In this document: piece by piece, positions 5,345 through 11,542 of the stretch
Position numbering within the stretch: position 1 is the first letter of the stretch
How the letters are laid out: every line of letters starts with the position of its first letter
Assembly: GCA_018608045.1 (NCBI GenBank)
Contig: JABBAI010000066.1
Location: forward strand, 1 to 33,164
Source of the DNA: Octadecabacter sp.
GTDB taxonomy: Bacteria; Pseudomonadota; Alphaproteobacteria; Rhodobacterales; Rhodobacteraceae
DNA length: 33,164 nt
Direction of reading: 5' to 3'
The notes under the pieces: generated by a model
Told to the model about the DNA's origin: nothing
The model's database searches: none
What the model saw: the letters and a program-made list of their open reading frames with translations, nothing else
Made by a program: the position numbers and the translations under genes

Positions 5345-5968
5345 TTATTTCAATGCTTCTAGCGTGGTCGCAAGGTCGCCGTACCCTGTGAGGCGGCGTT
5401 CAAACGCGAGGCCCAGCCGTTTTGCGTGCTGTTGTGCCAGCGCGGTCAACGCGGGATCATCCGTTTGGGCTTGATAGACCAGCGATTTGTAGTTGCCGAA
5501 ATACATGTCGCGCAGTTCGGGGTGGCGATCTAGGCCGAGGGGTTTGACCACAAAGGCATCGAATTGGCGCACGAGGAAATCGGTCAGGAAGAAGCTGAAC
5601 ACTTCGTCCTTTTTGGCAAACTCCGCGTTGCCCTCAAAGAACGAATAACAGTGCGGGCCTTCAACCATGTCCACACCAAGATCAGCGCATTTCTTGGCCA
5701 GCAGCCCGCCGGTGCCACAATCGGCATAGACGACGAACACCTGCGCATAGGCGTCACGATGTTTCAGCACGGCCTGTTCGACCGCGTCGGGGATTTTTTC
5801 GGGATGCACATGTAAAATGGCGGGCAAGCAGTGCAGATCCATATGGGACCAGCTGTTAATCTTGATCAGATCAAGGATTTCACGCGCCAGTGCCCCACAG
5901 GCGAGCAGCAAAATCCGCCCATCGCCCTGCGGCGCAAGGCCCGTTGTAGTGAGGGTTTGATCATCCAT
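5345..5968 (-). CDS. DUF1638 domain-containing protein (putative corrinoid/methionine-synthase-associated)
   Basis: RILLLACGALAREI...HCLPAILHVHPEKIPDAV...VVYADCGTGGLL...GPHCYSFFEG; neighbourhood of corrinoid and methyltransferase genes. Confidence 0.85.
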   Translation of the reverse strand: MDDQTLTTTGLAPQGDGRILLLACGALAREILDLIKINSWSHMDLHCLPAILHVHPEKIPDAVEQAVLKHRDAYAQVFVVYADCGTGGLLAKKCADLGVDMVEGPHCYSFFEGNAEFAKKDEVFSFFLTDFLVRQFDAFVVKPLGLDRHPELRDMYFGNYKSLVYQAQTDDPALTALAQQHAKRLGLAFERRLTGYGDLATTLEALK

Positions 5969-6581
5969 CGGTCAGTTTGAGGGTACGCATAACGGCCGGA
6001 CGGGCCTGCATTGCGGCAAAGTGGGCTGCCAGTTTCGGGTAGTCCGCAATATCAACGCCATCTTTGGGCAGCCAGCAGCAGACGTTGAACAAATGGATGT
6101 CTGCCACGGAATAGTCACCCACGAACCATCCGTTATCTGGTAGGCTGCTTTCCACATGGGCGCAGCTGGCGTTCATGGTTTCGGGAACTTTGGCGGCCAT
6201 GGACGCGTGTGCGGCTGGATCATCGGACCAGCGTTCCCCGCGCACGCCGTGGGCGTGGTTCGGGTGCATTGTAGAGGCGAGGTAGCTCATCATTTCGCGC
6301 ACTTTGGCGCGGGCGAATGTGTCTGCGGGCATCAATTGCCCCGATAGGTCCGCAATATATTCTAGAATTGCGGGGGCTTCGGTCAAAACACCATGATCGC
6401 CCGTCAGCGCCGGAACGCGTCCTTTGGGGTTTACGGCCAAATAGTCGGCTTTGCGTTGATCGTTACTCGCAAAGCTGAGCCATTGGATGGTGTGAGAGAT
6501 CCCCGTTTCCTCAAGCGCGATATGGGGCGCCAGCGCGACGGTGTAGGGAGCAACAAATAGGGTCAGCATCGTTTGGTCCAA
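5961..6581 (-). CDS. glutathione S-transferase family protein
   Basis: Thioredoxin-like N-terminus with GRVPALTGDHGVLTEAPAILEYIA and a helical C-terminal domain. Confidence 0.88.
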   Translation of the reverse strand: MDQTMLTLFVAPYTVALAPHIALEETGISHTIQWLSFASNDQRKADYLAVNPKGRVPALTGDHGVLTEAPAILEYIADLSGQLMPADTFARAKVREMMSYLASTMHPNHAHGVRGERWSDDPAAHASMAAKVPETMNASCAHVESSLPDNGWFVGDYSVADIHLFNVCCWLPKDGVDIADYPKLAAHFAAMQARPAVMRTLKLTDG

Positions 6582-6587
6582 TCATGC

Positions 6588-6618
6588 AAAAGCGCGCAGC
6601 GGGGTGACCACTGCGCGC
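6588..6618 (-). terminator. putative intrinsic terminator downstream of the corrinoid protein gene
   Basis: On minus strand GCGCGCAG-T-GG...CC-G-CTGCGCGC followed by TTTT; stem 6592-6599/6611-6618. Confidence 0.6.
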
Positions 6619-6641
6619 GCTTTGTAAAAGTGTCAGCGGTT

Positions 6642-7346
6642 TTAAGCAGTAGCGCCTTGGTTGTGCTTACGGGCCATAAACGTCTTGGCCGTTTCAACAG
6701 CCACAGCCGCGTCACGACAATAGGCGTCAGCCCCGATGGCTTTGCCAAATTCTTCGTTCAAGGGCGCGCCACCAACCAACACCACATAATCATCGCGAAT
6801 ACCTTTTTCGATCATCGTGTCGATCACGACTTTCATGTAGGGCATTGTGGTCGTCAGCAGGGCGGACATGCCGAGGATATCGGGTTCTTCCGCTGCAATC
6901 GCCTCTAGGTAGGATTCGACCGCATTGTTGATGCCAAGATCAACGACTTCAAAACCGGCGCCTTCCATCATCATCGATACAAGGTTTTTGCCGATGTCGT
7001 GAATATCGCCTTTGACCGTTCCGATGACCATTTTACCAACGCGCGGTGCGCCTGTTTCGGCCAACAGCGGCTTAAGGATGAACATGCCGCCTTTCATGGC
7101 GTTCGCGGCCAAAAGAACCTCTGGCACAAACAAAATACCGTCGCGGAAGTCGTGGCCAACAATCGTCATGCCGCCGACAAGTGCTTTGGTCAGAATATCA
7201 TAGGGAATCCAGCCGCGATCCAGCAGGATGTGCACGGATTCTTCGATTTCTTCCTTCAGGCCATCATACAGGTCATCGAACATTTGCGCGACGAGGTCGT
7301 CGTCGTTCAGCTCGCTCAGGATGATGTCGTCTTGGTCGTCTGACAT
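6642..7346 (-). CDS. B12-binding corrinoid protein (MtbC/MetH cobalamin-domain type)
   Basis: GTVKGDIHDIGKNLVSMMMEGAGFEVVDLGIN (DxHxxG cobalamin motif) plus N-terminal helical cap domain. Confidence 0.94.
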   Translation of the reverse strand: MSDDQDDIILSELNDDDLVAQMFDDLYDGLKEEIEESVHILLDRGWIPYDILTKALVGGMTIVGHDFRDGILFVPEVLLAANAMKGGMFILKPLLAETGAPRVGKMVIGTVKGDIHDIGKNLVSMMMEGAGFEVVDLGINNAVESYLEAIAAEEPDILGMSALLTTTMPYMKVVIDTMIEKGIRDDYVVLVGGAPLNEEFGKAIGADAYCRDAAVAVETAKTFMARKHNQGATA

Positions 7347-7378
7347 GGGGGAACCCTTTGATCTTGTTTACCGGATTT

Positions 7379-7417
7379 GGTCGCAATTGTCGCAACCGGT
7401 CTGGGACATTTGCGACA
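7379..7417. promoter_or_regulatory. cluster of TTGCGACA/TGTCGCAA-like octamers upstream of the corrinoid gene
   Basis: GGTCGCAA (7379-7386), TGTCGCAA (7388-7395) and inverted TTGCGACA (7410-7417). Confidence 0.4.
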
Positions 7418-7480
7418 TTGATTGCCTATACAGCGACCGTTACGCAAATGAATACTTTGCGCCATAATAATGTGATTGCT

Positions 7481-8083
7481 TCATGGTGACCGGTAGCGCC
7501 GCGCTGCAAACACCGTTGCGGCCACAATTGTGCCGGCCAAAAGGGTCTTGGACATCACCTCCATAGCGCCTTCGATCTGAATCGCATGGAGGGCTGTGGC
7601 GATCACAACAATGCTGGCGATGCTTTGATGCAGACGTTTCCAAGAACGGGGACGCATGGGTAATTTCAGGCGCGTCATTGCAAGCAGTGCCGTCAGGACC
7701 GCCCCCCAAAGTGCCACAACGCCAAACAGCGAAAACCATGTTGGCGCGCGCAGCAACGAGGCGTCGATCGTGTCTGGGGGGCTGACAAAATAGAGGCCGA
7801 CAACATGGGCGAGGATCAAAATCAGGATACTTGCCCCGATGATGCGGTGCCAGCGCCGCGCGGTTGCGGGGGCGATTAGCGCGCGGACGGGGCACGCGAG
7901 GAGGGGTTGCAGCACGAACAGGGACATCGCGACGATGCCTGCAAAGCCCGCGGCGATATACAGTGGGCCGCGATACGCAAGGTATGGGCTGGTGGTTGCA
8001 AGTGCAATTGGCACTACCATCGCGGCGATCACAACACCCCACAGAAAAAAGGCGGTCAGGCGTGTTGTCACATCTGTTTCCAA
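7481..8083 (-). CDS. ferric reductase-like transmembrane (heme b) protein
   Basis: 200 aa, multi-TM, with HRIIGASILILILAHVVGLYF and KRLHQSIASIVVIATALHAI histidines. Confidence 0.75.
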   Translation of the reverse strand: METDVTTRLTAFFLWGVVIAAMVVPIALATTSPYLAYRGPLYIAAGFAGIVAMSLFVLQPLLACPVRALIAPATARRWHRIIGASILILILAHVVGLYFVSPPDTIDASLLRAPTWFSLFGVVALWGAVLTALLAMTRLKLPMRPRSWKRLHQSIASIVVIATALHAIQIEGAMEVMSKTLLAGTIVAATVFAARRYRSP

Positions 8084-8101
8084 CGCTTCGGTGCCTTTGT
8101 G

Positions 8102-8599
8102 TCAGGTTGCGGCCAACACAAAATCAACGTTTAGCGATGTGTGTTGCGCGCTTGGCATGACGGGACGCAGGAAAACGGACTGATAGGCCTCATCATCATA
8201 GGCGAGGTGGGCGTGGGGTTGCCCGAAGTTGGGGGTAATTTGCGGCATCTCAAGGCTGTAGGTGCCGTCTGCGCGTGTCAGCACACTGGCGTGGTTTACG
8301 GGGTCAGGATCGCCACCCAGAACCGTCGCGGCCCAGATTTGAATGCGAACATTGGCCAGCGGGTCGCCCGTGCCGGCATCGCGCACGAGGCCCGTCATCA
8401 AGAAACCGGATCCCAGTTTGTCCACAATCGGGGCGTTTGGACGGTAGTTGTTGGACCCGCCGCGCATGGTTTGGGAGGGCGTCAGCGCCTGTGCCAGGGC
8501 AGGTGTCGCCAATCCGACGCCCATCGACAGAGCGAGGGAGGCCGCCCCAAAGCTGGATCAGCGCAGGAAGGTTCGGCGGTTGTGAAACTGTGCTGTCAT
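8102..8599 (-). pseudogene. Tat-signal intradiol dioxygenase-like protein with in-frame TGA in its signal peptide
   Basis: Start 8599 with AGGAG SD encodes MTAQFHNRRTFLR*SSFGAASLALSMGVGLATPALAQ...; TGA at 8560-8558; remainder (ORF 8102..8524) open with QPHAHL motif. Confidence 0.7.
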
Positions 8600-8655
8600 G
8601 GTCTGGCTCTCCTGATGTGCGGACGGGTCGGGGTGGCGCATGTGCCACCAACGTT

Positions 8656-8671
8656 GTCTATTACCATAGAC
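8656..8671. promoter_or_regulatory. perfect 6-bp inverted repeat GTCTAT-TACC-ATAGAC, operator candidate
   Basis: Located 57 bp upstream of the start at 8599. Confidence 0.4.
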
Positions 8672-8739
8672 GTTCAGCACGACTTGCACAGATACTGCAC
8701 CGATTTGTGAACATCCGCTGCGCCGAAAGTTGCCGAAAA

Positions 8740-9753
8740 TCAGCTGCGGCGGCGGCCGCGACGTGGTGCGCGTGTTGGGCCTGCGCCGTCAGTTCCGTCT
8801 GACGCGGATGAAAAGCCGCCAAGCGCTTCAGCGATTGCTTCGAGGGTTGGCAATGCCCCTTTGGGGCGTGTTTCCAAAGCGTTACGCATCGCGCGCAAAT
8901 GGTCAGGCGTGGTGCCACAACAGCCGCCGATGATCGTGGCACCGCTGTCGCGGGCCAAACAGGCATAATCCGCCATCAGATCAGGCGTGCCGTCATAGTG
9001 AATGTGGCCGTCGACATATTTGGGGATGCCAGCATTGCCTTTGGCGATCATGGGAACATCTGGTCCCGCCGCCTGAAACCCCAGCACGGTGCGCAATAAA
9101 TCAGACGCGCCGACACCGCAGTTTGCGCCAAAGGCCAGTGGGGGATTGGGCAGTTTGCCGACCATTTTAACCATGTCCGCGCTGGTCAGGCCCATCATTG
9201 TGCGCCCGGCGGTGTCAAAGCTCATGGTGCCGCACCACGGCATATCTGCCAAAGCAAAGGCTTCGGCAGCGGCTTTGTATTCTTCGGGGGCAGAAATTGT
9301 TTCGCACCAAAGGACATCCGCGCCGCCCGCTTTAAGGCCTTCAGCCTGTTCGTGGAACATTTCTACAGCGCTTTCATGGGTCAATGATCCCATTGGAACC
9401 ATGATATCGCCGGTCGGCCCGACTGACCCTGCGACCACAACTGTGCGGCCTGATTTATCAACAACTTCGCGTGCGATTTCAGCAGCGACTTTGTTGATTT
9501 CATGCACCTTACCTTCACCGCCGTGAAGTTTCAGGCGCGATGCGTTGCCGCCGAAGGTATTCGTCAAAAACAGGTCGGATCCAGCATCGACTGCGCCTTG
9601 GTAGAGCGCCGTGATACGGTCACGATGTTCGAAATTCCAGAATTCGGGCGCATCACCGGATTGCAGCCCCATGTTGAACAGCGTTGTTCCCGTGGCACCG
9701 TCGGCCAAAAGCCAGTCACGCGACGCGAGAAGGTCTGAAAGAATATTCGTCAT
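8740..9753 (-). CDS. bmt: homocysteine S-methyltransferase / betaine-homocysteine methyltransferase family (MetH N-terminal-like)
   Basis: LLADGATGTTLFNMGL...FLTNTFGGN...GANCGVGASD...IIGGCCGTTPDHL (zinc-binding Cys motifs). Confidence 0.93.
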   Translation of the reverse strand: MTNILSDLLASRDWLLADGATGTTLFNMGLQSGDAPEFWNFEHRDRITALYQGAVDAGSDLFLTNTFGGNASRLKLHGGEGKVHEINKVAAEIAREVVDKSGRTVVVAGSVGPTGDIMVPMGSLTHESAVEMFHEQAEGLKAGGADVLWCETISAPEEYKAAAEAFALADMPWCGTMSFDTAGRTMMGLTSADMVKMVGKLPNPPLAFGANCGVGASDLLRTVLGFQAAGPDVPMIAKGNAGIPKYVDGHIHYDGTPDLMADYACLARDSGATIIGGCCGTTPDHLRAMRNALETRPKGALPTLEAIAEALGGFSSASDGTDGAGPTRAPRRGRRRS

Positions 9754-11542
9754 GATCCGCGTCTCCGATAGGGGATATCAGCGGTTCGCATGGGGCGCGG
9801 CGCTGTGCAAATGAAAAATCCTCATGATGTCGCTGAATGAAATTCGGATCGGGGAGTGGGCCAGGCCAGCGGATGCGGAAGGCGAGGGTAATCATCACCA
9901 TCAAAAGATGGATCGGGCCGCCCGCGCACAGATAGCGGGGGTGCCACTGGGGGGCAAAGCTGGATTTGAACCGCTTCAAACCTGCACATCGCGCTGTGAT
10001 CTTTGCACCAAACGGGAAGTTGCGCGGCGGCGTCGCCACACTGGCAAGCGAAAGGGTTTGCACGCCAGTATCCCGTGCGCTGTGGATCGCGGCCTGCACC
10101 AAGGCGTGCATCGTGCCCTTGGGGATGTTGGCCGTGTGCCGCATTGGATCAAGCGTCCAAACGGGGCCCGTATGAAAGCTGGCAAAGGCGACGGGTGTGT
10201 CTTGATCGAAGGCCGCGAATACGCGCTGTTGGCGCAGATAAGTCGGGCAAAACCGCCCCATGGAATGCCCTTTTTCACCGCCGTGGGATGCTGCCCATTG
10301 CGTAGCAACGGGGCGCAGGATTTCCGGATCGGTCACCTCGCGGAGGGTAATGTTTGAGCGTTCAAAGGCCGCCAAGGCGCGACGCAACTGGCGTGTGTCG
10401 GGGCGGTTGGTGGACCACTGTTGCGGGAAGATAAGGGCATCTTGGGCGCATCTGATCACCGACCATCCCGCTGTGCGCGCGGCGATGGCTTGTTTCGCGC
10501 TGCATTTATAAAGGGCCTTGAGGTCTGTTTGGCGGCGTAGATCTTCGAGCGTCATGGCGTCGGGCAAATCCCCTAGGATCGCGCCGTTGCGCCAACAGGG
10601 CAGGGTCAGCATGTTACCTTTTGAGTGGGCGAAAGGGATCGCTGATTGAAATACCAACGCGGCCTCGGGATGGTTGGGTGCCTGTGCGCGCAACAGGGGA
10701 CGGGTGTGCCAAAGCCCCAACAATGCCACAGCGGTGGGAATTGCGTAATATATCACGCGAAACGCCAACACGGCGGCCATGGCTTGTGCATCTGTTGTCG
10801 CCCCCAAAAGGGCAAGTAGCGTCAAATCGAACGCGCCAATTCCGCTTGGCGCATTGGATAAAAGGCCAGCACCCAAGGCAATAAGGTATGCCGTGAATAG
10901 CAGGTGAAACGACACAGCGTCAGGCCACAACAGCCACAGGGCAAGCGCGGCAAACAATGTGTCCGCGCCCGTCGCGATGAGTAGGGCCAGCAGCGTCCGC
11001 GCGCCAACTGCGCGAGGAATCCAGCCCCGACGATGGGCGATGCGCGCGATTGCCATAAGCCCGATCAGCGCGCCCGCCCCAATCCACAAGAGGGTATTGG
11101 ATTGCGATACCAGACCTAAAAATTGCACAACGAGCGCCGTGATCGCTGCGAGGGCTGCAAGGAATGACAGACTGACCAGAACCGACAGTCGTAAAATGGC
11201 GGAGGGCATCATGTCTGACAGGCAACGCCACCGCACCAATGCGCTCGTGAGGGTGCCAAACCCCAATGTCTGTGACACGGCGATCGCTTTCATGCCTGCC
11301 GCGCGTGCAATGGATGGGGATTGGCCGGTCCCGAGTGCTGAATGAACCAGCAAATCATAGGTACCGATCGCGCGAAAACTCAGGGCTGTGCAGATCAACG
11401 CGCCGCCCCATTGCCAGAAGGTTAACCGAGAGAGGGCGTCAAGAACTTCGACCCCGTTAAACGTGGCGATATGGCGCAAAAATAACGTGCCAAAAACAAG
11501 CAATGCAACGATGGGCACCCATTGCAGCAAGGATCCTGACAC
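9716..11542 (-). CDS. MprF-like protein: lysylphosphatidylglycerol synthase-type TM domain plus DUF2156 domain
   Basis: Multi-TM N-terminal half (SNAPSGIGAFDLTLLALLG) and cytosolic C-terminal GNAT-like half; 3' end overlaps bmt by 38 nt. Confidence 0.82.
   Translation of the reverse strand: MSGSLLQWVPIVALLVFGTLFLRHIATFNGVEVLDALSRLTFWQWGGALICTALSFRAIGTYDLLVHSALGTGQSPSIARAAGMKAIAVSQTLGFGTLTSALVRWRCLSDMMPSAILRLSVLVSLSFLAALAAITALVVQFLGLVSQSNTLLWIGAGALIGLMAIARIAHRRGWIPRAVGARTLLALLIATGADTLFAALALWLLWPDAVSFHLLFTAYLIALGAGLLSNAPSGIGAFDLTLLALLGATTDAQAMAAVLAFRVIYYAIPTAVALLGLWHTRPLLRAQAPNHPEAALVFQSAIPFAHSKGNMLTLPCWRNGAILGDLPDAMTLEDLRRQTDLKALYKCSAKQAIAARTAGWSVIRCAQDALIFPQQWSTNRPDTRQLRRALAAFERSNITLREVTDPEILRPVATQWAASHGGEKGHSMGRFCPTYLRQQRVFAAFDQDTPVAFASFHTGPVWTLDPMRHTANIPKGTMHALVQAAIHSARDTGVQTLSLASVATPPRNFPFGAKITARCAGLKRFKSSFAPQWHPRYLCAGGPIHLLMVMITLAFRIRWPGPLPDPNFIQRHHEDFSFAQRRAPCEPLISPIGDADHDEYSFRPSRVA

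Follow-up and report, generated by a model that had tools for sequence, protein, structure and literature searches.

A small gene for a predicted Tat-exported, intradiol-dioxygenase-like protein in the draft genome of a marine Octadecabacter carries a single in-frame TGA within its twin-arginine signal. The stop is probably a recent single-base nonsense mutation that would abolish Tat export and mark the gene as an incipient pseudogene.

Results

Interrupted twin-arginine signal

The window, the whole 33,164-nucleotide stretch analysed here, corresponds to contig C44 of a draft genome that totals 2.78 Mb, is split into 206 contigs and is 85% complete. Only one copy of the gene was found in this 2.78-Mb draft. 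Its frame lies on the minus strand at 8102..8599 and comprises 166 codons, both stops counted; by the register of 89 orthologous loci, this is the ancestral coding frame of the exported protein. A Shine–Dalgarno-like (SD) AGGAG is located 5′ of the ATG at 8599 (approximately 8606..8610, minus strand), and a purine-rich GGGAG/AGGAG occupies a similar spot in three orthologous loci (L016, L054 and L017). Translation of the minus strand from the ATG at 8599–8597 reads MTAQFHNRRTFLR*SSFGAASLALSMGVGLATPALAQALTPSQ... (also written MTAQFHNRRTFLR*SSFGAASLALSMGVGLATPALAQALTPSQTMRGG...), with the final stop ending at 8102. The TGA (8558..8560, minus strand) is codon 14, directly after RRTFLR, and interrupts the signal region MTAQFHNRRTFLR*SSFGAASLALSMGVGLATPALAQA (8485..8599, minus strand). 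It is a lone lesion: the frame is intact on both sides, the SD is preserved and the body is open to the stop ending at 8102. No second lesion was found in the body, which is complete. Sequence and translation agree with the original prediction, which described an ATG at 8599 with an AGGAG SD, a TGA at 8560–8558 and an open remainder.

Read through the stop, the frame presents the elements of a Tat signal, RRTFLR...ALAQA, with an RR-x-phi-phi motif, a hydrophobic stretch and an AxA-type cleavage site; with TGA at codon 14, the present allele does not encode this signal in one piece. The Pfam TAT_signal model, which has low sensitivity, did not match the site in a search of the genome itself. 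The mechanical ORF call runs from 8102 to 8524 and begins at the internal ATG (8522..8524, minus strand), the start that ORF callers had been expected to choose; this ATG is without an SD and is no start in the orthologues.

Codon 14 in orthologues

Orthologues were collected from genome contigs (50 loci), from 60 relatives and from 397 family genomes, the best 30 of which were taken as loci. At all 89 fetched orthologous loci, an in-register RR-x-[FLV...] signal, frequently of the YNRRSFL type, lies upstream of the internal-Met position and contains no stop. None of the 89 begins at the internal Met without an upstream Tat motif, the pattern that the original prediction had named as evidence against itself, and its view of a genuine Tat signal cut by one TGA ahead of an intact body is upheld. 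The nearest orthologues, L016 (MHAPFYNRRSFIRTATLATAATTLTGLSTTARAQ) and L054 (MHKPFYNRRSFIRSATLAGAAATAAGWPAIAPAQ), are 76–78% identical.

At codon 14, motif register places a small residue (A, T, G or S) at 86 of the 89 loci and a MAFFT alignment places one at 84, which answers the question of which residue orthologues carry there. A stop occurs in 0 of 89, Arg in one and Trp in none, so that the suggested source codons TGG and CGA fit the column poorly. A single substitution is enough to produce TGA, because Gly and Ser each have a codon one base away. Since the 89 orthologous loci are open in register and none has a stop, the frame from ATG 8599 is, by alignment, the true ancestral coding frame; the TGA is then derived and private to the present assembly, and the ancestral gene did not start at ATG 8524. 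A lesion private to one lineage with intact orthologues, as found across these 89 loci, is the pattern of a nonsense pseudogene.

Two matches among the relatives were flagged for stops. The 'stop inside' reported for L082 in the genome search is an ordinary terminal TGA, and the match in the family genome G414, flagged for a TAA, extends to near the query end. Within the body, the usually conserved GEREPRNH motif has the variant GxPDPVNH in the window, shared among the rows shown only with L027 and L037.

Predicted fold and gene neighbourhood

The conserved body, from MRGG on (8102..8467, minus strand), is a small beta-rich intradiol-dioxygenase-like domain with an invariant HxH. Its assignment to the intradiol dioxygenases, made in the original prediction, holds at the level of the predicted fold and only weakly by sequence. 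The Pfam Dioxygenase_C model (PF00775) matches the window protein at E = 0.037 and 13.9 bits, below the curated cut-off of 27.3, with similarly weak matches in 44 of 45 members; a PDB profile search gave catechol 1,2-dioxygenase (1dlm) at E = 0.028, and an NCBIfam search with the body returned no family. The AlphaFold2 model has a mean pLDDT of 90, and its top Foldseek matches are nearly all intradiol dioxygenases, the best being 3-chlorocatechol 1,2-dioxygenase (2boy, E = 2.6e-08). Two compact structures also aligned over most of their length: 9yh9, a catechol 1,2-dioxygenase from a phage (TM 0.75 by query), and 4ilv, the SACTE_2871 dioxygenase domain (TM 0.68). Enzymes of the intradiol class hold Fe(III) with two Tyr and two His. 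In the orthologue alignment Y27, H104 and H106 are invariant and Y109 is near-invariant, and the three invariant residues look like candidate iron ligands. The window protein thus shares its predicted fold with the intradiol ring-cleavage dioxygenases (catechol 1,2-dioxygenase fold, PF00775), but its core of ~120 residues is much smaller and its relatives are Tat-exported; its iron ligands and any cleavage of catechols are putative.

A ferric-reductase-like (PF01794) membrane protein, listed only from a TTG start, is the conserved partner directly downstream (7481..8083, minus strand). Across the 62 orthologous loci L003–L064, a homologue of this partner adjoins the gene at 60; of the two exceptions (L048 and L063), one is a locus ending shortly after the match and the other a partial match. 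The two genes (7481–8599) form a conserved unit at loci from Rhodobacterales, Rhizobiales and Granulosicoccaceae. At L016 and L054 the pair also sits in the methyl-transfer neighbourhood seen at 5961–11542 of the window, whose members include a betaine-homocysteine methyltransferase (8740–9753) and a corrinoid protein (6642–7346). Our search for literature linking intradiol dioxygenases, Tat export and ferric reductases found nothing relevant, and the pair of a Tat-exported dioxygenase-like and a ferric-reductase-like protein is apparently uncharacterised.

Gene presence and constraint

The gene is present in 98 of 397 family genomes and in 5 of 11 near-complete congeneric genomes. Because presence among these congeners is patchy, the gene looks dispensable at the genus level and its loss tolerable in relatives, which raises the prior for a tolerated loss here.

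The body of the window protein has private changes at 12 of 118 columns, compared with 0–2 in four relatives, and differs at two columns that are invariant in all 86 others. Its end branch, at 0.81 changes per column, is long beside the median of 0.19. These private changes and the long branch are compatible with relaxed constraint. As proof of it, however, the acceleration is weakened by a control: the stem of the neighbouring bmt is long as well (0.160 versus 0.057, a ratio of 2.8, where the dioxygenase-like gene has 2.1 with the same two relatives), so that the acceleration is not clearly specific to this gene. Pairwise dN/dS in the body is low, at about 0.10–0.13 with dS saturated. Evidence for decay of the allele is therefore mixed, and any decay would be young, because the body is complete and a second lesion is absent. 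Both a young nonsense allele and a single-base error in a somewhat divergent lineage fit these data.

Decoding of UGA

The recovered assembly contains no recognisable machinery for reading UGA. A tRNA-Sec model search of the source genome (85% complete) gave only matches below the cut-off, corresponding to ordinary tRNA-Leu and tRNA-Ser, and the matches to SelB were likewise below the cut-off, the best being EF-Tu. A UCA anticodon occurs in 0 of the 21 tRNA genes found, none of which reads UGA; this absence is strong but not absolute, because the assembly is incomplete. UGA-suppressing features of tRNA-Trp are a 4-bp anticodon stem, A9C or G24A (PMC13092985). By our reading of the sequence, the tRNA-Trp is canonical: its anticodon stem has 5 bp (ACGGT/ACCGT) and it carries A9 and G24, so it lacks the UGA-reading features discussed there (PMC13092985). 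RNA folds after the stop equal those of shuffled sequences (z = −0.08 and 0.18), with no stable hairpin directly after the UGA, and the TGA is followed by T, a context that favours termination in Escherichia coli reporters (PMC11126739).

We rejected selenocysteine decoding, as tRNA-Sec, SelB and a hairpin are all absent from the recovered genome or site, and likewise a suppressor or reassigned tRNA, given the 21 tRNA genes and the canonical tRNA-Trp. Genome-wide recoding of TGA was discarded after a survey of 78 ABC-transporter domain matches from this genome: a single one, a weak 57-aa fragment, has an internal stop. This fragment (G000:C29:816-1010), an open frame of 57 aa with one internal TGA, may be a broken gene or a remnant. 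A translation-factor-like match with a TAG, L073, proved to be a gene with a normal end that we read from its sequence as EngB-like.

Discussion

A recent nonsense mutation probably accounts for these observations. The gene would have been an ordinary, vertically related copy, encoding a small Tat-exported protein beside a ferric-reductase-like membrane protein, until a one-base substitution within the Tat signal turned codon 14, ancestrally a small residue (A/T/G/S), into TGA. From ATG 8599, ribosomes would then produce a 13-residue peptide and stop, and weak restart at ATG 8524 would yield at most a cytoplasmic protein that lacks the RR motif and retains little of the hydrophobic stretch. 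The allele is probably null for the exported product, in a gene that is frequently absent from relatives. We infer for this scenario that the TGA base is real, that translation stops there and that the loss is tolerated. Nonsense mutation and sequencing error had both been put forward in the original prediction, and the analysis supports both as explanations.

The main rival, at a considerably lower probability, is that the TGA is miscalled in the draft assembly, as a consensus error or minority strain variant, and that the gene is intact in the population. It is favoured by the fragmented state of the draft (206 contigs, 85% complete) and by a sole lesion that amounts to one substitution in front of an entirely open body. 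The assembly is not lesion-rich, though, with one weak 57-aa fragment containing an internal stop among the 78 ABC-transporter matches, and the raised number of private changes, while inconclusive, would be unexpected from an error alone. Much less likely still is that the protein restarts at ATG 8524 and functions in the cytoplasm without its signal. The ATG lies about 33 nt past the stop, within restart distance, and the retained body still has a low dN/dS. Against this, no SD precedes 8524, no orthologue begins at this position, the product would carry a useless half signal (MGVGLATPALAQA) and the partner encoded downstream remains a membrane protein.

Functional readthrough or recoding, by selenocysteine, a suppressor tRNA or a leaky near-cognate tRNA-Trp, would give a low-level full-length Tat substrate and is similarly improbable. 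TGA is the leakiest bacterial stop, with a leak of some per cent in bacteria (PMC11126739), and the frame past it is intact; in E. coli reporters, TGA is read through chiefly as Trp, at a rate strongly dependent on context and stress (PMC11126739). A trace of full-length product from such leakage is possible. The sub-cut-off tRNA-Sec and SelB matches, the tRNA complement, the unremarkable folds and the T after the TGA all argue against functional readthrough, and conserved or programmed readthrough appears unlikely because no examined orthologue has the stop. The proposal of functional readthrough in the original prediction thus found no Sec machinery, UGA-reading tRNA, structure or conserved stop in its favour. 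We consider it highly improbable that the TGA acts as a leaky, condition-dependent stop tuning an exported product (near-cognate Trp readthrough) against a cytoplasmic one (restart at ATG 8524).

The favoured nonsense mutation is an ordinary finding. The allele resembles bacterial pseudogenes made by a single nonsense mutation, in that one in-frame stop, found in none of the orthologues, breaks a gene that is otherwise intact. Here, by contrast, the stop falls within the export signal and the remainder shows no erosion, so the present case would represent an early stage at most. Programmed UGA recoding, as in selenoproteins and codes with UGA as Trp, shares the internal TGA and the open frame beyond it, but here the searches recovered no selC, SelB, UCA-anticodon tRNA, altered tRNA-Trp, conserved stop or RNA structure.

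For annotation, the consequence is that an ORF caller silently trims the gene to a 140-aa protein without an export signal, and this trimming conceals the probable loss of function as well as the Tat export of the family. The conserved gene pair, found in Alphaproteobacteria and some Granulosicoccaceae, deserves more attention than the stop codon itself.
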